Source: Xiphophorus maculatus
Taxonomy: Eukaryota > Chordata > Actinopteri > Cyprinodontiformes > Poeciliidae
Direction of reading: 5' to 3'
NCBI RefSeq assembly: GCF_002775205.1
Contig: NC_036457.1
Location: 4,819,524-4,883,523 of the forward strand
Length of the DNA: 64,000 nt
Position numbers and translations under genes: made by a program. Under the pieces are notes generated by a model. That model searched no databases. It was not told the DNA's origin and saw only the letters and a program-made list of their open reading frames with translations. Shown here in pieces: positions 14,444 through 59,295 of the stretch (the stretch's first letter is position 1; the number at the start of each line of letters is the position of its first letter).

Positions 14444-14718
14444 CACTCAACAAAAATATAAACACAACACTTTTGTTTTTGCTCCCATTTTTCATGAGAT
14501 GGACTCAAAGATCTAAAATTAATTCCAGATAAACAATATTACCATTTCTTTCAAATGTTGTCCACAAATCTGTCTAAATGTTTGATAGTGAGCACTTCTC
14601 CTGTGCTGAGATAGTCTATCCCACCTCACAGGTGTGCCACATCAAGATGCTGATCTGACATCATGATTAGTGCACAGGTGTACCTTATACTGCCCACAAT
14701 AAAAGGCCACTCTGAAAT
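14444..14718 (+). repeat. Left terminal inverted repeat of the Tc1 element
   Basis: It is complementary to 15799-16072 over about 275 bp. Shared inner landmarks are gtgcacaggtgtaccttata and cccacaataaaaggccactc. Confidence 0.93.
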
Positions 14719-14741
14719 GCGCAGTTTTGTCTCACAGCAAA

Positions 14742-15753
14742 ATGCCACAGATGTCGCAAGCATTGAGGGAGCGTGCAATTGGCATGCTGACAGCAGGAAT
14801 GTCAACCAGATCTGTTGCTCGTGCATTGAATGTTCATTTCTTCTCCTTAAGCTGTCTCCAAAGGCGTTTCAGAGAATTTGGCAGTACATCCAACCGGCCT
14901 CACAACCTCAGACCACGTGTAACCACACCAGCCCAGGACCTCCACATCCTGCAGGTTCACCTCCAAGATCGTCTGAGACCAGCCACTCAGACAGCTGCTG
15001 AAACAATTGGTTTGCATAACCAAAGAATTTCTGCACAAACTGCCAGAAACCGTCTCAGGGAAGCTCAACTGCATGCTCGTCGTCCTCATCGGGGTCTTAA
15101 CCTGACTCCAGATCGTCGCCGTAACAGACTTGAGTGGGCAAATGCTCACATTCGATGGCGTCTGGCACGTTGGAGAGGTGTTCTCTTCACGGATGAATCT
15201 CGGTTTACATTGTTCAGGGAAGATGGCAGACAGCATGTGTGGCGTCGTGTGGGTGAGCGCTTTGCTGATGCCAATGTTGTGGATGGAGTGGCCCATGGTG
15301 GTGGTGGGGTTATGGTATGGGCAGGCATCTGTTATGGACGAAGAACACAGGTGCATTTTATTGATGGCATTTTGAATGCACAGAGATACCGTGATGAGAT
15401 CCTGAGGCCCATTGTTGTGCCATATATCCATGAACGTCACCTCATGTTTCAGCAAGATAATGCACGGCCCCATGTTGCAAGGATCTGTACACAATTCTTG
15501 GAAGCTGAAAATGTCCCAGTTCTTGCATGGCCAGCATACTCACCGGACATGTCACCCATTGAGCATGTTTGGGATGTGCTTGACCGGCGTATACGAAAGC
15601 GTGTACCAGTTCCCACAAATATCCAGCAACTTCGCACAGCCATTGAAGGAGTGGACCAACATTCCACAGGCCACAATTGACAATCTGATAAACTCTATGC
15701 AAAGAAGATGTGTTGCACTGCATGAGGCAAATGGTGGTCACACCAGCTACTGA
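14742..15753 (+). pseudogene. Tc1 transposase with one frameshift near the C-terminus
   Basis: The frame from ATG 14742 (MPQMSQALRERAIG) encodes an N-terminal paired-like helix-turn-helix DNA-binding region, then the DDE catalytic domain. The acidic residues are Asp in LFTDESRF, Asp in FQQDNARPH and Glu in SPIEHVWD. Thirty-four residues separate the second Asp and the Glu, the DD34E spacing of Tc1. After ...RTAIEG (about 15650) the frame shifts and stops at 15680. The expected tail (WTNIPQATIDNLINSMQRR ... GGHTSY) continues in another frame to 15753. A single small deletion therefore separates this copy from a full reading frame. Upstream in-frame codons before 14742 lack an ATG, which is why this start is chosen. 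Confidence 0.92.
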
Positions 15754-41557: not shown

Positions 41558-44500
41558 ATGACGACGATGAAGGTGTTTCGCTGTCCTGGTCGCCATGGTT
41601 ACGCTGTGGAGGCTTCGCCATTCCTCCCGAACCGACTGGCCTGCGCGGCGTCCCAGTACTACGGAATAACTGGTCAGTGTGGAGAGTCGGTTCATACCGA
41701 AATAAATCGCAGCAACAAAATAAAATAAAATTTATCAGTCAGAGCCACAAAACAGAACCTGGTTTTCCACTTCCTGGAAAAGATTCACATGAAATATAAT
41801 CAGAGAGAAATGACCTCAACAAATATTTAAGATTAGATAATAATGAATGTTATTTTAATGAAAAGAAAGAATATAAAAAATGCTGAATTAAAATACAAAA
41901 TTCAATGTAAATCAGATTTGGTAAATAATATCAGTAAAAATAGTAGAAAAATAAAAATAAATCTAAAGCATATATAAAAACTGTCAAACTCAAAATTAAT
42001 AGTAAAATAAATTAATGAACACATGAGTAAAATTACAATAAAAATGCAGATTACAACATTAATGAGAATAATAATAATAATTGTTAATATAATGAAGAAT
42101 AGAAAGTTACTGCAGAAGGTAAGATAATTTCTAGATGACTCAATGTGACTGATTTCCTAATAAAATAAAAAATGAAATATTTTAAATGAATATTTAAAAA
42201 AATAAGAAAACAAAATCTAAATAAAACTAAATAATTATTAATTAAATGAGTAAAAGACCTAAATGTATAAGAAAAAAGTAAATAAAGGGAGTATATGAAT
42301 GAATATAAATAAATAAACTCTTTATAATAATATGAATATGAATGTCTCTGCAGGTTCTGGATCTCTGTTTGTTCTGGATCAGACAGAAACTGGGATTGTT
42401 TTAGTGAGAAGGTAAAGTTTCTGGATGCTTCATTTTTTATTTTTACCACAAACAGGAAGTGCAGATGTGTCCAGATTCGGGTTAGGATGTGTAAAACTCT
42501 TAGACCGCTCTAAGGTGGCGAAACGCTGAAAACACACAGAATGAATGATGCAAAATCCAAAACACACCAAGAAAACATTTGAATGCAACACAAAAACGCT
42601 GCAACCACAGGAAACAGAAGCAAAAGGGAAAACAAGCTACATAAAGCAGAAGACCTCCAGGCCACCAGGGGGAGTCTGGAGTCGGCCATATTAGCTACGT
42701 AAATATGCTGCTGCTCTCTACGATTGTAAAAACCATGAACCATAGAAAACCTTTTCCTTCTTCCACTCAACTTTCTTCTGGAATCTCGTCGTTCCTGAGT
42801 TTGTAGTTCCAGATGAAGCGGTCGGCTCCCCCTGCTGGTCTGGAGGACTAACGTCTGTGGAGTCAGTTTGGAGCCTTTTATTCTTGCTGATGTTTTTGTT
42901 TCTGTTTCCTGTTCTGGTGCGTTTTAATGTTAGCTGCAGTTTGGTTCCTTTCAGCCACCGTAGTTTCACTTCCTGCTGACAAACTTTTATGATCAGAGTC
43001 TCTGGAGGATTTCCAGAGATTTTATTGGGCTTGTGCTGCTTGTCACACTCTCTCTGTGTATGTGTGTGTGTGTGTGTCTCTCTCTCGCTGTGTGTGTGTC
43101 TGTGTGTATGTGTGTGTGTGTGTGTCTCTCTCTCGCTGTGTGTGTGTCTCTGTGTGTGTGTGTGTGTGTGTGTCTCTGTGTGTGTGTGTGTCTCAGCTGG
43201 CAGTGGGGTGACGGTCTCTTCGATGTTGCGTGGAGTGAAGCTAACGAACACGTCTTGGTGGCTGGAGGTGGAGACGGCAGCCTGCAGCTTTGGGACTCAG
43301 CCAATCAGAACGCTCCGCTGAAAGTGGCCAAGGAGCACACACAGGAGGTACGACGCACACACACACACACACACACACGCACCCCGCTGTGACTGACCGG
43401 TGTGTGTGTGTGAAGGTTTACTCTGTGGACTGGAGTCAGACCAGAGCAGAGAACCTGATCGCCTCCGGATCCTGGGACCGCTCTGTTAAAGTGGTGAGGC
43501 TCCGCCCCTTTATTTGAGGCTCCGCCATCATTTCACAGTGGCTCCGCCCATAACGCTCCTCTCTCTCTCCTGAAGTGGGACCAGAACCTCGGCGCCTCCC
43601 TGGCCACGCTCAGGGGTCACGAAGGGGTCGTCTACAGCTCTATCTGGTCTCCTCACATCCCAGGATGCATTGCTTCAGCCTCAGGTCAGCCGCCGCTCTC
43701 ATTCTCCGTCAGGAATCCCAGAATTCCCAGCATTCAGCTGTGAAGGCTGATGGTTCAGCTTAGAGTTTGTTAGCAGCCTTTGGCCACAGGGGGGCGCCCT
43801 GCAGCGTGAAAGTAAATCCGTCTGATCTGATAGAAAATGGGCTTAAATATTTTTCACTCATGAAATCTGAAAAGTGTGGCGTGCTCAGCTCTAGTTCAGG
43901 TTTCAGTGATTTTAGGCTTTTAGGTTTTCTATTTTTAGCGCAGAATTCAGATCCAACTGGACCCAACCGGGTCGTCAGAGCTAAACTGGACCCGGTTCTG
44001 CTGTGGAAAGTCCTGGCCGGGCCTGAGGAATCCTGGCCCAATGGACCGGTCTGCTCAGCTGGGTCGCGTTCTGATCCGACAGGTCTACGTTATTTATTCA
44101 GAAAAAAGTTGGATTTAAAAATAAATGTCACCGTTCTTTTGTTTTTTTCAACATTTTACTTCTATCATGACTTTTTAAACATTTTAGGAAAATATATTAA
44201 TTTGCTCCTTTTTCTGATTTTTATTATTTTTCTACTTTTTTAATGTGATCAAAAATACTTTGAAAAACTGACTTTCATTATTTCCTTCGTTTCTATTTGC
44301 ATTTTTTTATTTATTTGTTTAATATTTTTTCTTTATTTATTTTGAAGAACAGCATTATTTCTATTTTTGTTTTTAATATATTTTTTATTTGTTTAGTTTA
44401 TTTTCCTTTTTTGTAAAACTTTTTTTTGTCTTTCTTGTTTTGAACCTTCATTTTTCTTTTAAATCTGTTGCTCAGCAACCAGTCGGGTTCTGTTGGGTCA

Positions 44501-46367
44501 AAGTGGTGGGTTCTGGTCCTGTCGGGCTGGTTCTGTTTTGGACCTTTGAGCCAGCCGGTGCTGCAGCAGAACCCTGAAGCCCGGCGGCTCTTTGTGGACC
44601 CGACTCCGGCCGGTTCTGGCTCAGTTGAAACAGCGTCACATGGGTCTCTGGTCCCAACAGAACCGACCGCAGCTCACGAGACGGCCAGCGACCCGGTTCC
44701 TCACAAGCGCTGCTTTGTTTCTGAGCTTTTAGTCTCAGTTCTATCAGGAAAATGTCCCGGCTGAGTATTAAGTGTGATGTCATGGCTACATGTAGCGAAG
44801 GTTAGCATGTAGCTTCAGCTGCTAGCTAAACGTGGATCAGTGAGTCATCGTTCCACTACATGCCAACACAGTGTTTGGCTGAGGCTAACGCTAAATGCTA
44901 GTCACGAACATTCATTTTGCTTGTGGAAGTGATTCTGTGTGACTGAGCTTTCAGGTTTCAGGATTGTTGAGTTTTGCTAACTCTGCTGCTGCTTTAGCCT
45001 GATTGGCTGCAGTAGAGCTTCGGTCAGAAAACTTACCGGACAGTTTATAAACTGTTTACTGTGGAACTACAGCAATGCATTCTGGGTAGAGGATAATACC
45101 CTCAGATATTGTTTCATGTTTGTCTTCTTCTCTACTGTTGGCACATTTTCACACTGAAATATGTGAAAATGTTTTTTACCGTCTGCATGGATTCATCAGT
45201 TTAAAACCTAAAATCTGTCAAATTCTCCAGATTCATTTTCAGTGAAAGCATCTGGAGCTGCGTGTGTTTTCAGTCCCTGGATTAAACTCATCTCAGCAGC
45301 TGATGGCGGTTTTGTTGCTGTGATTGTTGTGATGCCGCCCGCGCGGCGCGTCGGTTCGCTCCGTAACGATGCTGCGGCGGATTAGAAGTGAAGGTGGCTG
45401 CGCTGCGCCGCGGCTGGCAGCTTCCTGCTCACCTACGCACTCGCTACCATCCGCCTCAACGCCGCTCAGCTAATGAGATAAAGGCTGTTTCAAAACATGC
45501 AGATGAAAAAGAAGCGGGGATTATCTGCAGGAGAACAGGCGGATCAGGTGGGAGCTGCTCTGATTGGTCAGGATGATCGTCAGCCAATCAGAGCGTCTCT
45601 GTGTGGGACGACTTTATGCTCATATTTAATCTGTTTGCTCTTTTTGCCTTTAATCCATTTAGATCAGATTAAGCAGAATTTAAACGCCGTGCAAAACATC
45701 ATGAGTTTCAGCACAGCGGACTGAGGCCAGAAGGTCAAAGGTCAAAGATCTCCTCTGGCTCTACGGCCGTTCTGAGCATGTGCAGCACTTCAGAGATCGA
45801 GACTTGAGTCTACTGAGCTTCCTGTTGCCAGACGGCTAACAGGAAGCCCACACACCTCCAAATTGCACCCATCCCAGCTGTGCTGGTTGCTAGGCGACTG
45901 AGGGAGGGGGCTGGGCTTCCAGGCTGCTTTTTAAAACACAAACACCAAACGTGATTATATCAACTAAGTCAGCAACATTTTCAATTCAAAACGTTTTTGC
46001 TGCCAAGTTCATGAATAATTATCATTTTTAATCAACCATCAGCAAAGACTTTCAGGAAGAACTGAAACATGGAGCTAGCTCCTTTAGAAATGTGGACATT
46101 AGCACTAGCTGCTACCTGATAGCGTCAAGATGCTATTTCAGTTTAGGCTAACTCCTTTTAGCACAACCTGAACACAACAACAGTCTTTTCCAGCGTCCAA
46201 TCAGATCAATTAGAAGCAGAAATGAACCCAGAGAAGAAGAAGCTTCATGGCTGCTGTTAGCGATGTAGCTTTAGCATCTCTGGTTCCAACAACGAGAACG
46301 CACCGCTAACCTCAGAGCCACCAAACGCCGCCTCAGCAAAAACAGCTGGAGGAAACGATTCTCCAGA

Positions 46368-46433
<66 letters not shown>

Positions 46434-46513
46434 GTACGGTTCAAAACCGTCTCACATCAGTGATGATGAAAGAAGCTGCTGATGCAGCACTGATAGCAGG
46501 TTTAACAGAGGAC

Positions 46514-46555
<42 letters not shown>

Positions 46556-48990
46556 CCAGGCCTGGTTACCGGTGGTTAGCGGTTTAGCCGTGTTCTCCGC
46601 TGCGGCTCGTTCTCCCAGCGGTGTCTCTGTGCGAGTGAGGAAGAGGAGGAGGAGGAAGAGTGACTGTAATGTTTAATCTGATGTTTGTTTTTGCTCTTTA
46701 ATGTCCTCTGTGCAGCAAATGATCAGAAACTGATTAGTGCGGCTGACTGAAGCAGCTGAGAGTCTGGGTTGTTCTGATGATGGAGTTTCTAACATGGCGC
46801 CGCCTCAGGACTTCCTGCCGTCGCCACGTTTAGCTTTTAGCTCTCAGGTCACGTGTTGGCCAACCGAACATTTAGAAATAAAAACCATCAAACTTTCAGA
46901 AATCGACTCAAGTGAAGCTTTTTGAGGTTTTATTCAATGTTCAGCTGATAGTTTAGTAATGCAGCGAAGCCCACCGACCCGTAACCAGTGGCAACGGTTT
47001 GGGGTCAGATGGGTTCATAAAACCAGACAAAGTTTTCATCCTTCAGTCTGAGAAACTTTAAAACTTCCTGCTCCCCGAGTTGCTGGAGGTGAAAGGTTTA
47101 ATCTCAGCTCCGACGTCATCAGGTTGGATTATCCTGGAGGAAGTTTGAGGAGGAATTAATAATCTGTAATCCTGCATCGTGCTAGCACTTTGGCTGTCCT
47201 GACGCAGTGCATGCTGGGTAAAACCTGCGTCTGCTTCCAGGCGACGGGACGCTCAGAGTCTGGGATGTGAAGGCCGCTGCGTGCCGATTGGCTGTTCCTG
47301 CTCACAAAGCTGAGATCCTGAGCTGCGATTGGTGCAAATACGACCAGGTGGGTCAGACACGACTAATCGATCACAGAACTCGTTTTGATCACTGATCAGA
47401 GTTTAACCTGCTTTCATTTTCACCTGAAATTAACAGCAAAGTTAGAATAAAAATGATTTTTTAAATCAGATTATTTTAATCTGTCTGCAGAATAGGGGTT
47501 GAACGACTACATATTTTTTAAGGTCGACTACATCATGATAATAGTCGAGTCGATGTCGACTAGTCGCGGTGACGTCATAGTGACGTAAGCGCAAAAACCC
47601 TTCACAACTACTTGGAGGCTTTATTAGCTATTTTCACGGCAAATATTGACACCCCCCCCCCCACACACACACACACACACACACACACTCTCTCCCCTTC
47701 TCCTGCTTTTACTAAGTCTATTATGGAGATTCTTCGTGAGCAGCGGGGAAAAGTTTGCTGCACAAAGTCGGGTCTGACTTTTTTTTTCTAAACACCGGCT
47801 GATGCTGATGATCTCTGGATAGTTACTATAGGAGTCAAATGATCACACTGACTACATGGTGCTTTTGGAACATCACAAGCCGAACCTGTTATGAACGGAT
47901 CCCGTTTGGTTACAGCTGAATTCAACGAAACCACCTGCTTCTCCTCCGCCCGATGCGCGGCAGGAAGCTCTGCTGACTCAGCAGATTGAACGATTTAAGA
48001 TATTTTCTAGTCAACGTCAACATGATAAAAGTCGAGTCGATGTCGAGTTGACTAGTCGTTGTGACGTCATAGCAACGCAAGACGCAAAGCTTTGGAGTAA
48101 CGTACAGGCTTTATTACCCGTTTTCACGGAAAAATACGGCATTTACACAGAACAGCAACAAGTGAAACAACAAAACATCGGGATAGTTTATGATGAATAA
48201 CAAGTTGCTGGGAAACCAACATTCAAAAGGAACGCACATTTTTTAGATGGCATGTAAAAACAATAAAAAGAGGTGGCACGGGGGCGGGGGGGTAAATAAA
48301 GTTCACTCGCTGTCAATATTCTCTTCACTAAGAGTTGTTGGGGTTTTTTCTTGGTTGACATGTAGGAAAACAAGGGCATCAACATGAGCCGGATGAAGGC
48401 TTGCCCGCTTCCTCGTAATGGTATTCCCAGCGAGAGAGAAAATCCTCTCGCTGGGAGTGCTGGTTGCCGGAACAGCTAAATATTTTTAATATTTAAATAT
48501 TTTAAATTTTTTCGTGACAAAGACACTCGCGAGCCGGCTAAGTGACATCATTAGCGGGAAGGGGGCGAGTTTTAGACGGCTCCTGTTTTGTAGTGGACTG
48601 CAGCTGCAACTCCATCTCCTTTTAAAAACACTGTAAAACCACAAATATGCATCCATCTACATATCATTTAAACTAATGTATTAACTTATTTTTCTTGTGT
48701 CTTGTGACGTATACTGTGCTGTCAGATCAGTACAGGCTGTCACCACCGGCAATCACATGACTGCGACTAGTCGACATGAAATGTAAAAACTCGCGAGACG
48801 TCCTAGAGTCGACTAGTCGACTAGTCGACTAATTGGTTCAACCCCTACTACAGAATCTGGTGGCTACAGGATCAGTGGACTGCAGCGTGTGTGTGTGGGA
48901 CCTGAGGAACGTCACACAGCCCGTCAATCAGCTGCTGGGACACAGCTACGCCATCCGCAGGGTCAAGGTGCACACACACCCTCACACACA

Positions 48991-49054
<64 letters not shown>

Positions 49055-52000
49055 TCTGTCCCTCTCCATCCCGCTGCCTCAAACTGAGAAACAGTCTGTT
49101 GGTCCTGACAGCATCAAAACTCCCACTTTAATGGCCCAAATAGGAATACACACATTAGCCTGTGTGTGTGTGTGTCTGTTTTTACTGCAGAAGCTAAACT
49201 CCGGTTATCAGCCGTTTAGCTGGAGTTGTGCTCCTGTAGCAGCGCTTGTTGCAGCTCATTCTGGGGGCAGACAGACATCACCAATCGATGAGACGATTCA
49301 GCACAAAGAAATCTTCTTCTTCTGACTCGGCAGGACTGAACTTCCTCCTCAGCATTTCATCACTTCTGGTTTCAAATCTAACAAATTAAGGAAGTTTATC
49401 ATTTTATTTCCTTTAATTAAAATAACTTTAAAACTTACTGGCAGCTGGTGATAAAACTCTGAATTACATTTTCCTTTTATTTGTTGAATTATTTTATTTT
49501 CTTATTTATTTTTCCATTTAATTCTTATTATTTCTAAGCTATAATTTACTCTGGTTAATGGGTCGGTTCTGGTGGTTCTGCTGGGTCTCATTGACCAACT
49601 CATGGGGATCGGACCCGAAACAGATTAAACACAGAACGGTTCAGAAGGTCTGGATCAGCGGAGCAACCAAAAGGTTCTGTCAGCGTTTCTGAACTGGACT
49701 GGGTTCAATGAGCAGAACCGCTGAGTCTGCTCTGTCCTCTGGATCAGAACCGTCCTGCTGCTGCTCGCCTCAGAACCGACCGACCCAGAAACCTCTCAGG
49801 CCGAAGCTCCTCAAACGTTCTCCATGTTTCTGAAGAAATCGTCCAGGTTCTGCTCCGTGTCCGGTCAGATCCAGGTCTCTGCTCCAGAACCAGGAGATCC
49901 TGCCGGTTCTGCCGATCCCGCCTCTAATCCCGCCTCTGGTTCTCTCCGCAGTTCTCCCCATTCAGTCGGACCGTTCTGGCCTCCTGCTCCTACGACTTCA
50001 CCGTCCGGTAAGTTCTGGACCGGTTCTGATTCAGTTTTAGACGTCTGAAAGAACCGCAGCCTCTAAACCCGGGGTGTCCAACATGTGGCCCGGGGGCCAT
50101 TTATGGCCCTTGAGAGGATTTTGTTTGGCGAAGCAAAAACGGTAAAAATGTTTCCCAGAGACGGACTGAAGTTCTGTTTCTGTTCTGGATCTTTATGATG
50201 AACCGGTTTCACAAAAACTGTAAACTAGCAAATAAACAAATTTTTACATTTTAATTTCACAAAAGTGGTTTTCAGAGAGCCGAGCGTAAAAACATGGCGG
50301 CTCCAGAATATTCATCTTTTTATTGGATTATGGACTGAGGAAGAGGAGGAGGGAGTCTTCATCAGAGTAGCGATGATGATGATGTTTAATGATGATGATG
50401 ATGATGGAGTGTGGGATGAAGATGAATCATTTCTGGCTCTGGGAAAATATCCAGAATAATAGAAAAATTCAAAACATATTAAATAATCCAGAATAAGTGG
50501 AGATTAATTTATATTTCCTTGATAATCTGCATAAAACTGGAGTTAAAAATTTATTCAGTTAATTATTATTTAAATTTATGCAACGTTAAAAACATTTTTA
50601 AAATCTCTCAAAATCAAAATTAAATTTGAGATTTTATTCCATGAAGAAATTATACTGAACAAAATCTAAACATGTGAAATATTGTTGCTACGTGGCGTCA
50701 ACAGCTGATGTTTTATTGTTTAATAGTAATATTTCTCTTCAAGACGAAACAAAATAAATATTTAAAAAATACTTATTTAATTTGGGAGCTTATTTTGTCA
50801 ATTACAAATTTTTAATTTTATTTCTTGACAAATTATATTAATAATAGTAAATATAATCATTAACATTAATTAAAAATATTTGTTATTATTAGTTAATGTT
50901 AATAAATTTTTTTCACTCTTGAATTAAATGAATAAAATCATTTAATTTATTTCCAGATTTCTATTTTCAGTCTTTGTTTCTTGAGAAATAAAAAGATAAT
51001 AAGAGAAACTCCGCCCTCTTTTCAATATGGAAACTTGAATTCAAAGCTGAACTAACGTTAAATAATAAAAGCAATTATTTTACTTTTATTATTTAACTTT
51101 AGTTCAGCTTTATATGTGAAATATATTAATATAATATCCAGTGTCAGCTGGAGAAGTTAAACTTATTGATCTCTGATGATCAGTTTTCTCCGTCCTGCAG
51201 GTTAAATCATTTCAGCGTCATTGAAATAATTAAAGCTTTAATTGTTTGATTATGATGAGTAAACTGATAAAATGGCCGCCATGCTGGTGGTTTCATGTTT
51301 GCTCTAATGATTATTTCTGCTTGTTAACATTAATTTCCTGTGTAAGAGTCTCAGTGACTGACGCAGAAGAGCCGCCCTCTCGTCTTCATGTTTTCTCTGG
51401 TTTAGATTTCACCAAACGTCCATGAAGTTTCATTCTGCTCCAGTCTGCAGAGAACAAAGACGTTTTGTAATAAAGTTACATTAAAGTTAATTTAATTTGC
51501 CATTAATGCGGCGCCGTAACGGCACTTTAGACCCGATTCAGACTGAGGGGTCGCCATGGGTTCTCCAGGCTGGTTGAAGTTTTCTCTGATGGGTTTCATC
51601 TGTTCCACTGATCTCTGACACATTGAGGCGTTCCTGAAGTGAAGGGATGAACAGGCGAGTGACCCGGTACCGAACGGTTCTGTCCAGGTTACAGAACCGT
51701 TGGATGTAACAACCAGAATGTGGCTGGTCTCTGAAACCAGTGGACTAAAGTTCCTGAAGGTCGTGGAGAGTCTTCAGCGGCCGAACATCCTTAGTGACCG
51801 GTTGAATCGGTCCGTTCAGCTTTGTCCTCGTCTCCCATGCAGGGGATCGGCCAGGCTGAGCGCTCAGGGTTCAGGAGAACATCTTCCCTTCAAAATAAAA
51901 GGAGGTTTCTCCACTTTTCTGACACCCATCGAACGTCTGAATGGTTCTGCAGCAGAACGGTTCTTTAAGGAAAAGCCAAAGCACACCAGACCCGATCTGG

Positions 52001-53732
52001 CATCAAACCTACAGAAATCTAGTCTGATGAGGTACACAACAGTTGGATCACGTTAAAGTCAGGAGGATCTCGTTGACCGTTAGCCATTCCCTCTGAGGTC
52101 TACTTTCAATGAAACTACGCAGGAACCTGACAGGAAGTGAGGCGGTGTCCAAGTAAAACTCATCTGATTTGGATGAAAATACAAAGTAGAATCTTTTACT
52201 CAAAAACTCAGTGAACTTCGTCAGGGTGAGATCGTCAGACGGTGATCTGGTTCCAGCAGGTTTGAGTTTTACGGCCGGATGGTTTCTGGTACAAACTCTC
52301 GTGAAAACTCGACCCCACGAGTCTTCGGGTCTGTTGAGGAACCTCCGAGTCGGATCCTGTATGTCAGAGGAAAGGGGAGAGTTTTGGTCTGAAGACTGAT
52401 TTCTGTCTGAACATCTAAATATCCCAAAGATGAGACAGTTTGACCTGTAAAAACAGGATGTTGGGCTCAACGTGGGACTCCAGAGGACCTGCTCGCTCTT
52501 CTGACTGTTGGTCCAAACGTTACAGTTTGGCTGCTTGGAAACAAACTTCATGATGGATGGAGATCATCCGCTGAACGCTTGTGATGTTTCCTTTGAACAA
52601 ACCATGGTGTTTGCTTTAGATAATCGTTTCCCTGCCGTTGTGTGAGTTTGCGCTCGTCTGCATTAATTTCCTGCCTAAGCTATAATCATAACAGCCTGCA
52701 GACACGTCGTCCCTAAATATTCCATGGAAATACTGATTGTTTTCTCAGCCGTCGGTCTTTAGATCTCGGTCCGCATGCAGGTCCTGTCTGCTGTGACTGA
52801 ACAGGTTTCATGTTAACGGCACAAAGCGGCGGCTGAATGGACGGTTCCACTGAATGAAACACAAAAGATGTTAAATAATTACCTGGAATCTGCAAACAAA
52901 AGAGACTTTTAGTTCCCAACCTGGACTCATTAAACCTCCTTTCACATCATTTAATCACAGCTTCTGCGTCTCCATGTTCCCTTCCACTATAATCCTTACT
53001 CCACTAAATATTATAGTTGTGCCTTCACTCCACATTTAACATCCCTGCAGCCAAATTACCACTGGATATGGATATCAACAATATGATCACATATCATGAC
53101 TAGAGATATCCATGGCTGGGTTTCTCTCCTGGATCTGTTGCCTTCATTTGGTCAGCAGTTGTTAGTCTGTAGGGTTGGTTTGGTGGTTTAATGGTTTACT
53201 AGTCTGTTAGTTTGGGTGGAGTGGGTCAGATGGTCGGTCGGTCGATCTGAGCCTGCTGGTGGAAAATGTTTTGCTTTCTGTGCAGTCGTCCCTCCAGCCC
53301 AGTGAATCTCGGGCGTTGCTCAGTAGGGCAGCGATGAACGCTGCAGTGGCTCCATGCTGCAGGTCGTTATCGTTCCTCTAAAGCGCTGAGCGGCGCTACG
53401 ACAGAAACGCTTTGGTATTTATGGCCACTGCATCCATTAAGCCAGAAAACTGATCTGCACTTTGGTTATTAAGTCTGAGGGTCTGTTAGCGGCACGTTGC
53501 TGCTCTATGGAAAACACACCAACAACCAGACATCAACTCTCTGATTGATGGATGAAAACTAACTAGTAGCTACTAACTAGTAGCGCCTGAGCTGTCGGTC
53601 CACTTTAACTACGTCACCATTTATTGGAATAAAACCATTTCTAATGTTGCTGAGCTAAAAAAATGGGTTGAGATTTTACACCAACAAGTCAATCAGTCAT
53701 TGAGGAAAACCTCTCAGAGCCACACACACTCA

Positions 53733-53800
<68 letters not shown>

Positions 53801-55651
53801 TGTGGGTGTGTGTGTGTGTGGTGGTTCCAGAATTAATACTGCACTAATGGAGCCCATTGAAACCTGCAGCCCCTCCCCCCCCCCCGGTCCGAAAATGATT
53901 TAATTGCATTTGCAAAGTGGATGAGTCTGGAGGGAGTGTTTGCTGCGTCAGGACACACACACACACACACACACACACAGTCTCGCTCTGTCAGGACCAG
54001 GAAGAGAAACGGTCTTTCAATTAGCCTGATTGGCTTCCTGAGCTGCTGCTTCGTTGCCTCTCTGCTCTCACGTCTCATAACCAGGTTTGGTGGACCATCG
54101 TCTTCCCCTCCGTGTCTCCTGGTCCGTGTCCCTCCGTGTCTCCTGGTCCATGTCCCTCCGTGTCTCCTGGTCCATGTCTCGTGCTCCGTGTCCCACCGTG
54201 TCTCCTGGTCCGTGTCCCTCCGTGTCTCCTGGTCCGTGTCCCTCCGTGTCTCCTGGTCCATGTCTCGTGCTCCGTGTCCCTCCGTGTCTCCTGGTCTGTG
54301 TCCTTCCGTGTCTCCTGCTCCGTGTCTCGTGCTCCGTGTCCCTCCGTGTCTCCTGGTCCGTGTCCCTCCGTGTCTCCTGGTCCATGTCTCGTGCTCTGTG
54401 TCCCACCGTGTCTCCTGGTCCGTGTCCCTCCGTGTCTCCACGGACCAGGAGACACCATGTCCCACCGTGTCTCCTGGTCCGTGTCCCACCGTGTCTTCTG
54501 GTCCGTGTCCCTCCGTGTTTCCTGGTCCGTGTCCCTCCGTGTTTCCTGGTCCGTGTCTCCTGGTCCGTGTCTCGTGCTCCGTGTCCCTCCATGTCTCCTG
54601 GTCCGTGTCCCTCCAGCCCGTTTCTGCTGCTCAGCCTCTATAATTCATCTGCGCTGTGACGTCATTATTATGTTGTAGGTTTTGTTGAGAATAAATAATT
54701 CTGTGTTTCCTCTTTTAGATACCTGCATGCTGATACACACACTCTGATACACACACTCTGATACACACACACTCTCACACACACGGAGCACAAAGCTAAG
54801 GTTAAAGGAAATGCTTCACTAGCCTCTTTGGGCGTAGCTTCAGTAGAAGCTAATAAAGAGGATTGTAAACTGATAGCATGCTAATGCTAATGGACTAGCG
54901 CTGTATTTTGGTCTTAATAAATGAAATTCATAAATTCAACTCTCCGACTCTCCTTCAGCCTCATACATCAAGAGCCTGATGGAGAACGGATAATCTTCAG
55001 TTTCATAAAACAACCAGAGAATCTGAATTGTGTCAAACCAGAAAAAGCTTTTGCTCATCAGAACCAGTAGAACCAGCAGAACACAAATCATCAGGAAATC
55101 TGCAGTTATTCTCCTGTTTCTACATCAGAGTCTGGATTTTTCCAGAACTTATCGATTGGCCCTGCAGATTAAACTTCCTGGAGGTTTCCCAGGTTCTTCC
55201 TGCTCCTCCTCTCGTCTCACGGTTTGTGTTTTTGTCCTCAGGTTCTGGGACTTCGGCAGACGTCTGCCTCTCCTGGACACAGTGGAGCATCATTCAGAGT
55301 TTGTCTGTGGATTGGACTTCAACCTCCACATCCCCCACCAGGTGATCCGTTTATCCCACTCATCCTCTTCACTTCCTGTTGTCGACCAACTAAAACACTC
55401 AACCTATATACCTTCATATGGTAAATTAAATTTCATCACCCAGCCCTAAATATCCCACTCATCCTCCTCCTCATCCTCCTCCTCTTCCTCATCCATCCAG
55501 TCTGACTTCTGTATCTTCCAGCCTGTAAATCTCTAAAATCGCAGCTGTTTCATGTCCTAACTGCATGAATGAAGTGAACTAAACGGTTCGGATCATCGGG
55601 AGTTTCCCTGATGTGGGAACATCCTTCCTGTCAGCGCTCCGCTCTGAGATA

Positions 55652-55711
<60 letters not shown>

Positions 55712-58700
55712 TGCGTGCGTGGGTCCGGTCCAGGCCGTCGGGTCAGTCTGAGCTCAGAAGCTCACCATCAGGCGACGCAGATCAGCCTGGATCAAAACCA
55801 GCGTTTTATTGATCTGATGGCAGGTTCCCATTTTTGAGAAGCTGAATTTCAGGTTTTCTTTGAAATCCAGCAGATTTCAGAAACGAGTTTCACTTCTGGA
55901 GCAGATGAACCTTCAGCCACAGCGCTGAGCAGCCGCAGCACGGCTAACTTCCTCCTGATGATGATGATGAGCTGCATGTAGGTGAAGGGAAGAGATTCTA
56001 CCTGAGCTTTTTAAAGAAGCTCATTTCCATAAACCTGACAGGAAGTTCAGACGGATGGTTAATCTCATCTTCGTCTTTAGCTTCGTCTTTAGCTCTGACT
56101 GAAATCCTGGCCGGGGTTTATGTTGTTTCCAGCTGTTTTTTACCTTCATGTTTTCTCCTGTGACTCTGAAAATGAATTCAAACTGGAGTTTTAAATGAAG
56201 CCAACAGTTTGACGCCGATGTACTGCGGGAATGTTCTGAAGCATTAGTTGTTTTTAATTAGTGTTTTTCTTTTTTTCTTGTAATCATTGGGAGACATTAA
56301 AGGTCTGTGTGGCTTTGAGGTCCGTCATCCCTCCGTCTGCGTCGCGTTCTGCTGCAGCCTTGGCTTCGCGAGCGCTTGTTAAAGGCGATGACAGAAGAGC
56401 CTTCCTGTCCTGAGGCTGAGTCACCGCGCTGCTGCTCCAGTCCTGAGAACACTTTCAGCTCCTTTCTGAGCTGGAGGTGGAACTGGAGTACAACCAGCAG
56501 GCCCGGCGGTATGGGCGGGAATTGGGCGTGTTGGAGGGCATTGGAGGGCATTACCCGCCCACAGAGTCAGCCCCTGGACTGGAAGCTGTTTGTTGTTTTT
56601 ACCTTAAAATGCCAACTCTCTGATTTTCCTATATCGGTTTGATACAGTAGCGGCTTCCGCACTTCCCATATCTGAGCCTTCTGTCACTTTTTTTCAGCAG
56701 TTAAAACTTTAATCCGTTGTTAACACGTAACCTGTTCTTCCGAGCCGCCTTTAACGCAACATGAGCGCTATGATGCTGGCGCTGAGTTTATACCTGTGCG
56801 GCAGAAGGAGACCTGCTGCTGCTGCGCAGAGCTGCTCAGGTGTGTTAGAATCATGGTAGCAAAACACAAAAAACTTTACAGTTTTTCCCCCAAACTAACC
56901 AACTGAGTTCAGTAAAGCTGATGGATGCAGCTAATGTTAGCTAAAAGATGACTAGCTAATGTTAGCTAAAAGATGACTAGCTAATGTTAGCTAAAAGATG
57001 ACTAGCTAAGAGATGACTAGCTAATGTTAGCTAAAAGATGACTAGCTAATGTTAGCTAAAAGATGACTAGCTAATGTTAGCTAAAAGATGACTAGCTAAT
57101 GTTAGCTAAAATATGACTAGCTAATGTTAGCTAAAAGATGACTAGCTAATGTTAGCTAAAATATGACTAGCTAATGTTAGCTAAAAGATGATTAACTAAC
57201 ACCAGTACAGCACCTTGCGCTTGCTAACTAGCAGTCTGTAGGCTACTGGTGCTTATGTTCTGAAGTGGGAAGTACTTGTTACTTTCACTTGAGTAACAAG
57301 TACTTGGAAAAAGGTATTTATAAAAGTAGTTTTACTGCACTGTTCCTTTTTCTTTTACTTGAGTCGTATTATTGTTGCTACGTAGATTCATTTTGCCCCC
57401 GTCAGACTCGTCTGGAGCCGGGGCTGACAACCAGTATGACCAACATTCAGACTGGAACTGGTCATCTTGGCACCCAAAAACTTTAAAGAAATCTTTATCC
57501 AAACCCATGGTTAGCATACAGTTAGCGACAGATGGGACAGCTAGCATGAACTCAGCATATTACACGGCGCTGAAGCTAATTTAGATTTAGCCGAAGGCGA
57601 TTCCACCGAATCCTTCACACATTTTATTAGCTGCAATCTTTAAATCTTTGTGATTCATGAAGACATTAATATGACCTTTAACAAACCAAATATCATGTTC
57701 TTCAGATGATTCCCAACCGCTTTATTCATGAATCACCCTGAATACAGTTAGTGTGGTTTAAGTCGTTTCCATGGTTACAGTATAAACGGTGCGTCTGCTT
57801 CATCGCTTTAAACGCCTCCAGGCTACAAAGTTTTTACTCTGAAGAAGCTCCAGTCACAAAAACAACAAAAACATTTATTCCAAAATAAAATCAGAGCAGA
57901 TTTTTTCCCTGCAGCTGGAAACACGAACAGAATAAATAAAGCCGAAGGTAACGGTGGCTGAGCCGAAGCAGCAGCAGGATTAAAGGTTGGTTACAGGATG
58001 AAAGCTGCAGCCAGCTAAAGCTAATGAGGCTCTTTTTGATGGAAACTCGCTCACCGTCCGACCTGCCGCTGGGCCCGGACGGCCGCTTCCAGCAGAACAT
58101 TCAGTCCGTCTAACAGAACCAGAACAGAAAGCAGATAAACATCACAGCAGCTTTTAGCTGCAGGCGGCATCTGTCTGCTGATCGTCACAGGCTGACGCTG
58201 GCAGCACACTTATCACCGAACAATAAACAATAAAAACTCTGAATTACACATTTATCTCTGCAGTGACAAACGGCAGAAGCTCCAAACAAACTGAAGAGTG
58301 CCAGAAAAACGTCTGAATACAGATTTTAATTCAGATTTTTCTTGTCATCCAACCTTACTGCAAGCAGAAAGCTAGCCGTGCTAACATAACGCGCTACATT
58401 AGTTCAGCTAATGCTAACGCTATACCAACCGGGTCAGCACCTGTTCCTGAGCGGGCCAAACATAATCTATTCCACCGTTCATCCTCCTCGGTCTCCATCT
58501 GATCCGGTCCGGACCAGTTCTGCTAAAGATGACCTTTGACCTGACCCTTCAGAGCCACATAAAGCCGGCTCCAGCGTGGTTCTTCTCCCAGCTGCAGAAC
58601 ATTTCCAGGACCAGAGACTAAAGTCTCGGATCAGAGAAACTCATCCAGGCTTTAGTTTCTCTTTAGTGGCTTTGATTCCTGCAGCAGCGCCTTCACAGGT

Positions 58701-59295
58701 CTGATTGACAACCCAGTGGTCCAGAACGCTGCTGCTGGAGTTCTGACTAGAACCAGGAGGATAGAGACACCACCTGGTTCTACACCATCTAGTTCTACAT
58801 CACCCAGTAGTTTATAAATTACTGAAAGGATTAAAGATTTGCTGCTGGATCAACCTTCTGGTTCTGGTTCTGGTTCTGCTATGCATCAGAACCAGAACCA
58901 AACATGTAGAAGCAGCATTCAGCTTCTATTCACCACAGATCTGGAACAAACTTCCAGAAAACTGAAGACAGTCGAAACCCTGAGCTCCTTTAAATCCAGA
59001 CTGAACCCAGCTGGTTGGAGCTGATTTAGAAACATAATCAATGAAACAATAATCAATAATCTGATGTACAACAACAACAAAATGTTTCTGTTTCTATGAT
59101 TTTGTATATTTGTGTTTATGATGTAAATCATTTTTAACTGCCTTGCTGCTGAAAGGTGCTATACAAATAAAATTTTATTGATTGATTGATTGATTGATTA
59201 GTAACTGCAGCTGTTTGGTTCTGCAGGTGGTGGATTGTTCCTGGGACGAGACGGTGAAGATCTACTCACCTTCCTGCCTCACTGCAGCATCATAA
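41558..59295 (+). CDS. pex7: PEX7, peroxisomal targeting signal 2 receptor (complete)
   Basis: PEX7 is a WD40 propeller that binds PTS2 cargo in the cytosol and delivers it to peroxisomes with PEX5. Ten coding exons are 41558-41672, 42354-42411, 43197-43347, 43416-43493, 43576-43684, 47241-47347, 48854-48967, 49952-50007, 55242-55341 and 59227-59295. They join without phase conflict into 318 aa plus TAA, near the human 323 as I recall. WD40 signatures recur: [46 protein letters not shown] and SYDFTVRFWD, ending in [13 protein letters not shown]. Diagnostic stretches are [33 protein letters not shown] and [12 protein letters not shown]. The start MTTMKVF is taken because it follows an acceptor and precedes the family's RxPGRHGYA block. 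The acceptor of the exon at 48854 is formed at the edge of a transposon, and several introns are built largely of CA/GT repeats. slc35d3 follows in the same orientation, as in mammals. Confidence 0.97.
43055..43195 (+). repeat. GT/CT microsatellite forming the pex7 coding-exon-3 acceptor tract
   Basis: Runs of GT alternating with tctctctctcgctgtg blocks extend to tgtgtctcag at 43196. The microsatellite itself supplies the polypyrimidine/acceptor region. At least two long internal duplications of a GT-plus-CTCTC block are visible. Confidence 0.9.
43348..43415 (+). other. 68-bp pex7 intron made mostly of CA and TG runs
   Basis: After the donor (GTACGA) a CA run is followed by a short middle segment and then a TG run that reaches the acceptor (gtgtgtgtgaag). 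The two runs are complementary within one very short intron. Confidence 0.9.
45557..45594. repeat. 11-bp perfect inverted repeat with two CCAAT boxes in a pex7 intron
   Basis: GCTCTGATTGG and CCAATCAGAGC are separated by 16 bases. It lies about 100 bp after a GC-rich island (45333-45480) in the fifth intron. No exon is recognised there. Confidence 0.8.
46370..46550. repeat. Paired GT and CA microsatellites in a pex7 intron
   Basis: A GT run of about 60 bp (46370-46432) and a CA run (about 46515-46548) sit 80 bp apart and are complementary. Confidence 0.95.
47485..47492 (+). repeat. Left target-site duplication of the hAT element (original pex7 acceptor)
   Basis: The 8 bp ctgcagaa precede the element. 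The upstream ttattttaatctgt plus CTGCAG is an intact 3' splice site followed by the AA that begins the next pex7 exon. Confidence 0.9.
47493..48847. mobile_element. hAT-family element inserted at the pex7 intron 6/exon 7 boundary
   Basis: The 1355-bp element has terminal repeats TAGGGGTTGAAC and GTTCAACCCCTA, and 8-bp target duplications differing at one base (ctgcagaa, ctacagaa). The 8-bp duplication and the encoded remnant assign it to hAT. Inside, the 5' region (about 47516-47640) is repeated near 48010-48140 with landmarks gtcgagtcgatgtcga, gtgacgtcatag and ggctttatta. A C/CA run sits near 47650-47690. It is internally deleted and cannot encode a full transposase. Its right end directly precedes the pex7 acceptor. 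Confidence 0.92.
48303..48476 (-). pseudogene. hAT transposase C-terminal dimerisation segment (remnant)
   Basis: The minus strand reads [20 protein letters not shown], then [20 protein letters not shown] and an acidic tail with a TGA stop, 57 codons in all. The SxSER-FS-AG-RxSL-P pattern followed by ALVFLH is the hAT C-terminal dimerisation domain. Upstream coding sequence is lost into AT-rich DNA. It is antisense to pex7. Confidence 0.85.
48848..48855 (+). repeat. Right target-site duplication, now the working pex7 acceptor
   Basis: ctacagaa includes the acceptor AG (48852-48853) and the first two bases (AA) of the coding exon at 48854. The preceding pyrimidines (aacccct) belong to the transposon terminus. 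Confidence 0.9.
48969..49051 (+). repeat. CA microsatellite immediately after a pex7 donor
   Basis: The donor of the exon ending at 48967 (GTGCAC) merges directly into a CA run of about 80 bp. Confidence 0.95.
50008..53734 (+). other. Pex7 intron 8, first part
   Basis: AT-rich sequence with GAT-rich runs near 50370-50406. Two opposite open frames (51700-52056 plus, 52048-52551 minus; 118 and 167 codons) sit in a GC-richer block, but I recognise no domain in either. They may be relics of a mobile element. Confidence 0.5.
53735..53980. repeat. GT then CA microsatellites with poly-C, pex7 intron 8
   Basis: A GT run (53735-53820), a C run (about 53875-53886) and a CA run (about 53952-53980) lie within 250 bp. 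Confidence 0.95.
54108..54616. repeat. 24-bp minisatellite in pex7 intron 8
   Basis: About twenty copies of a 24-bp unit (gtgtctcctggtccgtgtcc plus 4 bases) occur, with variants such as gtgtctcgtgctcc. One short segment (54442-54455, ggaccaggagacac) is inverted. Because 24 is divisible by 3, both strands stay open for more than 170 codons. Those frames are repeat artefacts. Confidence 0.93.
55654..55725 (+). repeat. GT then GTGC microsatellite, pex7 intron 9
   Basis: A GT run passes into gtgcgtgcgtgcgtgcgtgc. It is non-coding. Confidence 0.95.
56557..57426 (-). mobile_element. Unclassified 0.87-kb element, copy B (inverse of 4417-5284)
   Basis: This copy is in reverse orientation to copy A, almost the same length (870 versus 868 bp), and spans the same landmarks. 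Its ends read CAGCCCCTGGA and TCCGGGGCTG-like on the inverse strand. It lies in pex7 intron 9. There is no coding frame for a transposase. Confidence 0.75.
56930..57199 (-). repeat. 25-bp tandem array inside element copy B
   Basis: About ten units of gctaatgttagctaaaagat plus 5 bases, including the same shortened unit (tagctaagagatgac) as copy A. Confidence 0.9.
58690..59195 (+). mobile_element. 3' end of a non-LTR retrotransposon (L2/CR1-like)
   Basis: A broken frame contains [15 protein letters not shown], a familiar C-terminal reverse-transcriptase phrase, then further on [17 protein letters not shown] short 3' UTR follows with ggtgctatacaaataaaatt and an attg tandem tail. The copy is truncated and lies in the last pex7 intron. 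The clade is assigned from these phrases only. Confidence 0.65.

Follow-up and report, generated by a model that had tools for sequence, protein, structure and literature searches.

Ac/Ds elements that have inserted into maize exons are spliced out as introns, with bases of the transposon terminus or of the target-site duplication at the junction. We describe here an insertion of the same superfamily, hAT (hobo/Ac/Tam3), on a splice junction of a vertebrate gene. In a 64,000-nt stretch of the Xiphophorus maculatus genome (NCBI RefSeq assembly GCF_002775205.1, contig NC_036457.1, positions 4,819,524 to 4,883,523 of the forward strand; hereafter the window), a non-autonomous hAT transposon lies in exon 7 of pex7, the gene for the receptor of type 2 peroxisomal targeting signals (PTS2), and the 3' splice site (acceptor) of that exon stands on both sides of it. 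As in maize, a hAT element at an exon would be removed as an intron; the Ac/Ds elements use cryptic sites near the element, whereas at pex7 the host acceptor itself has been duplicated.

Introners, which are introns derived from DNA transposons, include families in which the element carries one splice site and the target-site duplication gives the other (PMC9860276). The likeness to pex7 lies in a mobile element's target duplication supplying splice-site bases, and the principle of a duplication donating a splice site is already known. Introners make many new introns in many genes, whereas at pex7, a vertebrate case found once, an existing intron has been lengthened and its old 3' splice site would be replaced. 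Neither introns in many genes from one family nor a new intron inside exonic sequence was found, intron 6 of pex7 being older than the insertion. In the titles and abstract openings covered, a part of the literature, we found no case of a hAT duplication replacing a vertebrate acceptor. SOS splicing (Zhao et al., Nature 2026, cited through the review PMC13247085) likewise concerns an inverted-repeat DNA transposon within a transcribed gene. At pex7 it would be unneeded if the spliceosome takes the downstream acceptor, and it is pairing potential only that was computed here.

Anatomy of the insertion

Read rightwards, the junction consists of intron 6 ending in ttattttaatctgtCTGCAG, then AA, the 1,355-bp element, CTACAG and AATCTGGTG, which belongs to exon 7 (Table 1). 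The 12-bp terminal inverted repeats (TIRs) are perfect, both ends reading TAGGGGTTGAAC, and the two 8-bp duplications, CTGCAGAA on the left and CTACAGAA on the right, are alike at seven of eight positions, with a single G/A difference. Each carries CAG followed by the AA that opens exon 7; the insertion point is 2 nt inside the exon. The chance of a match at seven or more positions between two random 8-mers is about 4e-4, and this agreement, with the perfect TIRs and the identical duplications in 84 of 89 copies of the family, shows that the arrangement is not due to chance. The anatomy is certain, and an earlier note on this DNA, which had placed a hAT element with 8-bp duplications on the pex7 acceptor and had seen an acceptor AG plus the exon-opening AA in each copy, proved exact to the base. 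Intron 6 predates the insertion, its donor at 47348 and its old acceptor at 47490 both being still present. A search for the empty site, made by joining the flanks, across the assembly (704,300,149 bases in 101 contigs) matched only its own two halves at the pex7 locus.

We propose that the transposon inserted in the recent past of the sequenced lineage and that, as hAT elements duplicate 8 bp on integrating, the acceptor CAG with the two bases opening the exon came to lie on both sides of it. The downstream copy would regain a 3' splice-site context from the right end of the element, in the form of a CTAAT branch site and the tract TTGGTTCAACCCCTACTACAG, and most transcripts would join 47347 to 48854, yielding normal PEX7. 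Some may instead be spliced at the old acceptor, which scores higher, and at the donor-like site at 47585, taking in a 94-nt exon with a stop codon; such messages would be removed by nonsense-mediated decay, and the allele would then be a mild hypomorph. We give this explanation as a whole, use of the new acceptor with possible leakage, a probability of roughly 0.7. Predominant or substantial use of the acceptor at 48854 is itself probable on the sequence features set out below, while measurable inclusion of the stop-containing (poison) exon is at rather less than even odds.

Identity of pex7

The 10-exon model has an open frame of 318 residues, with 206 whole codons before the end of exon 6 at 47347. 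It matches the PTS2 receptor chain 3w15 (E=1.6e-49), with four other WD40 entries ranking above that chain by whole-sequence E-value, and a Pfam search placed WD40 (PF00400) in it (E=4.6e-37). A human PEX7 query gave 20 matches in the genome, seven of which are exons at the pex7 locus (48-70% identity), the remaining 13 falling elsewhere (29-44%). Two of these 13 have E-values equal to those of single pex7 exons because their open frames are longer; their identity of 29-30% marks them as other WD40 genes. The locus is single in the assembly, and its product appears to be an orthologue of the PTS2 receptor, a WD40 propeller protein. At 43020-43196 and 43348-43415, intron ends of pex7 consist of extended TG/CT and CA repeats.

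Table 1. Positions, in window coordinates, of the pex7 exons and of the parts of the inserted element.
Feature	Position	Strand	Remarks
Left target-site duplication, CTGCAGAA (ctgcagaa)	47485..47492	+	holds old acceptor CAG/AA
hAT element, non-autonomous, 1,355 bp	47493..48847	-	transposase remnant on minus strand
Left TIR, TAGGGGTTGAAC	47493..47504	+	12 bp
Right TIR, GTTCAACCCCTA	48836..48847	+	now in place of the exon 7 acceptor pyrimidine tract
Right target-site duplication, CTACAGAA (ctacagaa)	48848..48855	+	acceptor CAG/AA, exon start 48854
Old intron end, pyrimidine-rich tract and AG (left acceptor)	47471..47490	+	score 7.05, approximate matrix
pex7 (PTS2 receptor) gene model	41558..59295	+	10 coding exons, GT-AG borders, open 957-nt coding sequence
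pex7 coding exons 1-5	41558-41672, 42354-42411, 43197-43347, 43416-43493, 43576-43684	+	
pex7 coding exons 6-10	47241-47347, 48854-48967, 49952-50007, 55242-55341, 59227-59295	+	
pex7 exon 7	48854-48967	+	114 nt, 38 residues, phase 0 both sides
Open stretch of 60 aa, hAT C-terminal dimerisation remnant	48306..48485	-	residues 2-42 match PF05699, E=2e-9
Branch-point-like CTAAT from element	48829..48833	+	branch A 48832, 22 nt before exon, predicted
Predicted poison exon, 94 nt	47491..47584	+	old acceptor to donor-like GAC/GTAAGC of the element, stop at codon 210

The proposed transposon-derived acceptor

Splice sites were scored with an approximate matrix. The right acceptor scores 5.48 against 7.05 for the left, in keeping with the claim of the earlier note that the right site is the weaker; yet it ranks above two (4.91 and 0.46) of the other eight pex7 acceptors, which range from 0.46 to 10.88 and of which the lowest is that of exon 4 (gtgtgtgtgtgtgaag). 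The right acceptor thus appears weak but usable. Its pyrimidine tract does derive from the transposon terminus, as had been proposed, and the element supplies the CTAAT motif as well. Across the 60 nt preceding the right acceptor CTAAT is the sole yUnAy motif; it lies at -22 within a 30-nt stretch free of AG, with none between the predicted branch A and the acceptor. The 60 nt upstream of the left acceptor contain a single branch-like motif, which at 12 nt is too close, other branch sites being possible there.

This context is common in the family. The right end with CTAATTGG was present in 37 of 39 copies from a similarity search, the other two giving no right end, and the last 25 bases are common to 85 of 87 aligned copies, a figure biased by the picking of copies through part of that end. 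A divergent copy (L059) has the tract without CTAAT, as do the left ends of the family, indicating that the splice cassette belongs to the right end. Since the right end is general in the family, the acceptor context came with the element and needed no evolving.

The old acceptor and exon skipping

Use of the left acceptor gives the reading AAT AGG GGT TGA, exactly as the earlier note had it, with a stop at codon 210 (the product ending in KYDQNRG). Downstream, the donor-like site at 47585 scores 6.6, within the range of the nine true pex7 donors (4.1-11.0), and is kept in 84 of 87 copies. The stop of the resulting poison exon, which the earlier note had not noticed, would lie 82 nt upstream of the following junction and 352 nt upstream of the final one; decay of the message is therefore expected. 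Recursive splicing at the left acceptor was considered and rejected, AATAGG following it instead of GT.

Several observations weigh against predominant use of the new acceptor. About one-tenth of all 3,988 AGs in the window match or exceed the right acceptor in score; inside the element itself two lie above it (48594, 6.9; 47916, 6.3). The left acceptor comes first, retains the old tract and has the higher score, and all these scores rest on the approximate matrix. In the full-length fold described below the new tract is paired with the left TIR (0.02 unpaired). As to the poison exon, the donor-like site at 47585 scores below eight of the nine true donors and beats only that of exon 7 (4.1); the weakness of the latter in turn makes in-frame skipping possible.

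The same features could be read as the signature of a null or strongly defective allele, in which the old acceptor wins, transcripts enter the element or carry the poison exon, and little PEX7 is made in the sequenced line. The distance from the left acceptor to the donor-like site is exon-sized, pairing with the left TIR can mask the right tract, the element has, besides the stop at codon 210, AATAAA-type motifs at 48262 and 48295, and an insertion so young has perhaps not yet been filtered by selection. We nevertheless consider such an allele unlikely, given that the assembly holds no second pex7 locus to compensate and that the score of the right acceptor is within the range that pex7 uses. 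PEX7 loss is severe in mammals, and the sequenced animal, which lived, therefore probably makes some PEX7. The earlier note went further in holding that normal PEX7 must use the right copy and that the gene had survived the insertion. Neither is established, as a young insertion keeps an intact frame even in a dead allele. We rejected the argument that an intact gene proves function for the same reason: the insertion has had little time for decay, and the intact frame says little about gene function.

Another outcome is that exon 7 is mostly skipped. Its size and phase allow exon 6 to be joined to exon 8 with the frame open and 38 residues lost, and its donor (48968-48973, GTCAAG/gtgcac followed by a CA repeat; score 4.1) is the lowest-scoring of the nine in the gene and would now be paired with a weakened acceptor. 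This donor lies outside the insertion and is presumably older than it; exon 7 may have been prone to skipping even before the transposon arrived. Loss of 38 residues from a WD40 propeller should also damage function, and we regard a predominantly skipped exon as very unlikely.

RNA folding around the element

The left TIR is a perfect antisense of the right TIR, which forms the new pyrimidine tract, and the two pair in the predicted fold with a probability of 0.84-1.0. The 1.4-kb region folds at -439 kcal/mol, against a mean of -362.5 (sd 8.0, n=20) for dinucleotide shuffles. In local folds the new tract is more accessible (0.46-0.63 unpaired) than in the full-length fold, where the left AG is likewise buried (0.06 unpaired). 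The right CAG is unpaired in 34% as observed, in 0% if both duplications read CTGCAG, and in 41% if both read CTACAG. The accessibility of the left tract shifts greatly with the length folded, and the fold figures are only indicative.

Such pairing, in a region far more structured than its shuffles, would suit SOS splicing, in which the old acceptor is used and the element enters the mRNA, from which its inverted-repeat hairpin is excised after transcription, RTCB joining the ends. With an ordinary acceptor right at the edge of the element this route becomes unnecessary, and at pex7 we consider it very unlikely. The hairpin also enters a wider conjecture, which we consider improbable: that the right ends of this hAT family are ready-made 3' splice-site cassettes (CTAAT plus CAACCCCTA) that make a self-healing but leaky intron wherever the duplication includes an acceptor AG, and that pex7 has so gained a poison exon and an acceptor-hiding hairpin of TIRs and duplications, perhaps loosened by the G/A difference, amounting in platyfish to a species- or strain-specific switch of PTS2 import.

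The hAT family

Exact family ends occur 98 times (left) and 103 times (right) in the genome. Among 99 loci fetched, 89 gave both ends and 10 did not; the duplications of the 89 complete copies are identical at all eight positions in 84, at seven in four and at six in one. Not all 89 are independent, as three on C11 share flanks, and two (L040 and L047) are embedded in AT repeats that prevent assessment of the duplication. The three C11 copies (C11:12163102-12186487; L014, L017, L020) have duplications and near flanks that are identical and lie about 10.9 kb apart; they probably reflect tandem segmental duplication of a region containing the element.

hAT elements prefer targets of the form nTnnnnAn and have short TIRs of YARNG type. 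In the family T stands at position 2 in 71 of 89 targets and A at position 7 in 58, with both in 47; CTGCAGAA fits the preference and the pex7 element ends, TAGGGGTTGAAC, are of the YARNG type. One copy (L080, on C4), the only one near 4 kb among the 89, has 3.97 kb between its ends and carries in separate open frames matches to the hAT dimerisation domain (PF05699, E=3.8e-19) and the BED finger (PF02892, E=2e-8); it is likely a relative of the source element. By every test made (duplications, TIRs and transposase domains) the family classes as hAT. It shares with the superfamily the 8-bp duplications, short TIRs beginning TAGGG and, here in the longer relative, the BED and dimerisation domains. 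The pex7 element itself looks ordinary among hAT transposons, and it is the landing place that stands out.

Lengths fall into classes of about 1.3-1.4, 1.45-1.5 and 1.7-1.75 kb; some 400 bp that 11 copies (L033-L042, L045) possess are missing from the size class to which the pex7 element belongs. The left end of the pex7 element (47499-47559) recurs internally at 47986-48046, 487 bp further on and 79% alike, and with a second internal repeat at 47616/48106 the element has two left-end-like blocks. A 25-letter pattern from the element gave no match in scans of the genome_contigs and viral_contigs collections. Elsewhere in the window, a 325-aa open frame at 14703-15680 (+) resembles a Tc1/mariner transposase as judged by eye, and a tRNA scan found nothing.

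A TIR end followed by NNNCAG was found at 13 places (10 forward, 3 reverse), against two for a control pattern; of the 13, L065 falls outside the family ends, and left ends account for five (L061-L063, L067, L068). A coding exon was recognised only at pex7, the 12 other places being inspected by eye, with a Pfam search of two of their frames. With other registers admitted, 57 of 178 flanks carried an AG inside or bordering the duplication, giving 10 candidate frames at six loci. Pfam searches of five of these 10 frames and of the two NNNCAG frames left six without a match and none accepted; the other five (three of L042, one each of L037 and L076) lay outside that search. An L037 frame was rejected as a coding exon, its DUF6798 match (E=0.024) falling short of the cut-off, and the L061 frame had no match in the PDB. 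Flanks spanned about 100 nt at the first 39 loci and about 300 nt at the 60 that followed, so that exons farther away would be missed. On the flanks and frames covered, the pex7 case looks like one lucky register rather than part of an Introner-like wave.

Age of the insertion

The age alignment comprised 87 copies (three of the 89 dropped for length, the pex7 copy added). By a strict count the pex7 copy has two private changes in 1,307 sites (0.15%; Poisson upper bound about 0.55%), against a mean of 0.11% and a median of 0.08% for 21 others of its size class, and its closest relative differs at 12 of 1,338 sites. In an earlier 36-copy alignment (1,348 sites) it had three private changes and 12 differences from the family majority; the corresponding 0.89% is an upper limit, as nine of the 12 changes are common to other copies. 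Three Xiphophorus genomes differ at one position per 52-69 bp (PMC4705583), or roughly 0.7-1.0% per lineage when halved. Measured by its private changes the insertion is most likely younger than the split of the Xiphophorus species; judged by its departure from the family majority, its age could roughly equal that of the split. The same paper lists hAT as one of the most abundant superfamilies in Xiphophorus, with activity that probably persists, but also finds the youngest copies to be scarcer in X. maculatus than in its relatives (PMC4705583). The duplications differ at one of 16 positions, compared with two private changes in 1,307 sites in the element (Fisher p=0.036); this is mildly unusual in so young a copy and too weak for a claim of selection.

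With two private changes in 1,307 sites set beside the divergence among Xiphophorus genomes (PMC4705583), the insertion may be polymorphic or private, or even an assembly error, the species as a whole having the empty site. An assembly error is an unlikely source of an 8-bp duplication flanking a complete element, and the assembly contains no empty-site haplotype. We regard this possibility as a tentative one, short of even odds; for carriers it is compatible with use of the new acceptor.

Implications

The insertion at pex7 is a natural single-step experiment on how a vertebrate gene may survive a transposon on its splice junction. Xiphophorus species give fertile hybrids (PMC4705583), and both alleles could therefore be read in one nucleus. 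A regulatory meaning of the insertion is speculation, including the suggestion of the earlier note that the element tunes PTS2 import, for which the predicted 94-nt poison exon, running up to the donor-like site at 47585, offers a concrete possible route. If the new acceptor is used as proposed, hAT ends are able to take over the roles of branch site and pyrimidine tract, and an existing splice site can be shifted by more than 1 kb through a target duplication with the protein unchanged. If it is not, this laboratory fish carries a disease gene, pex7, in a recent loss-of-function form.
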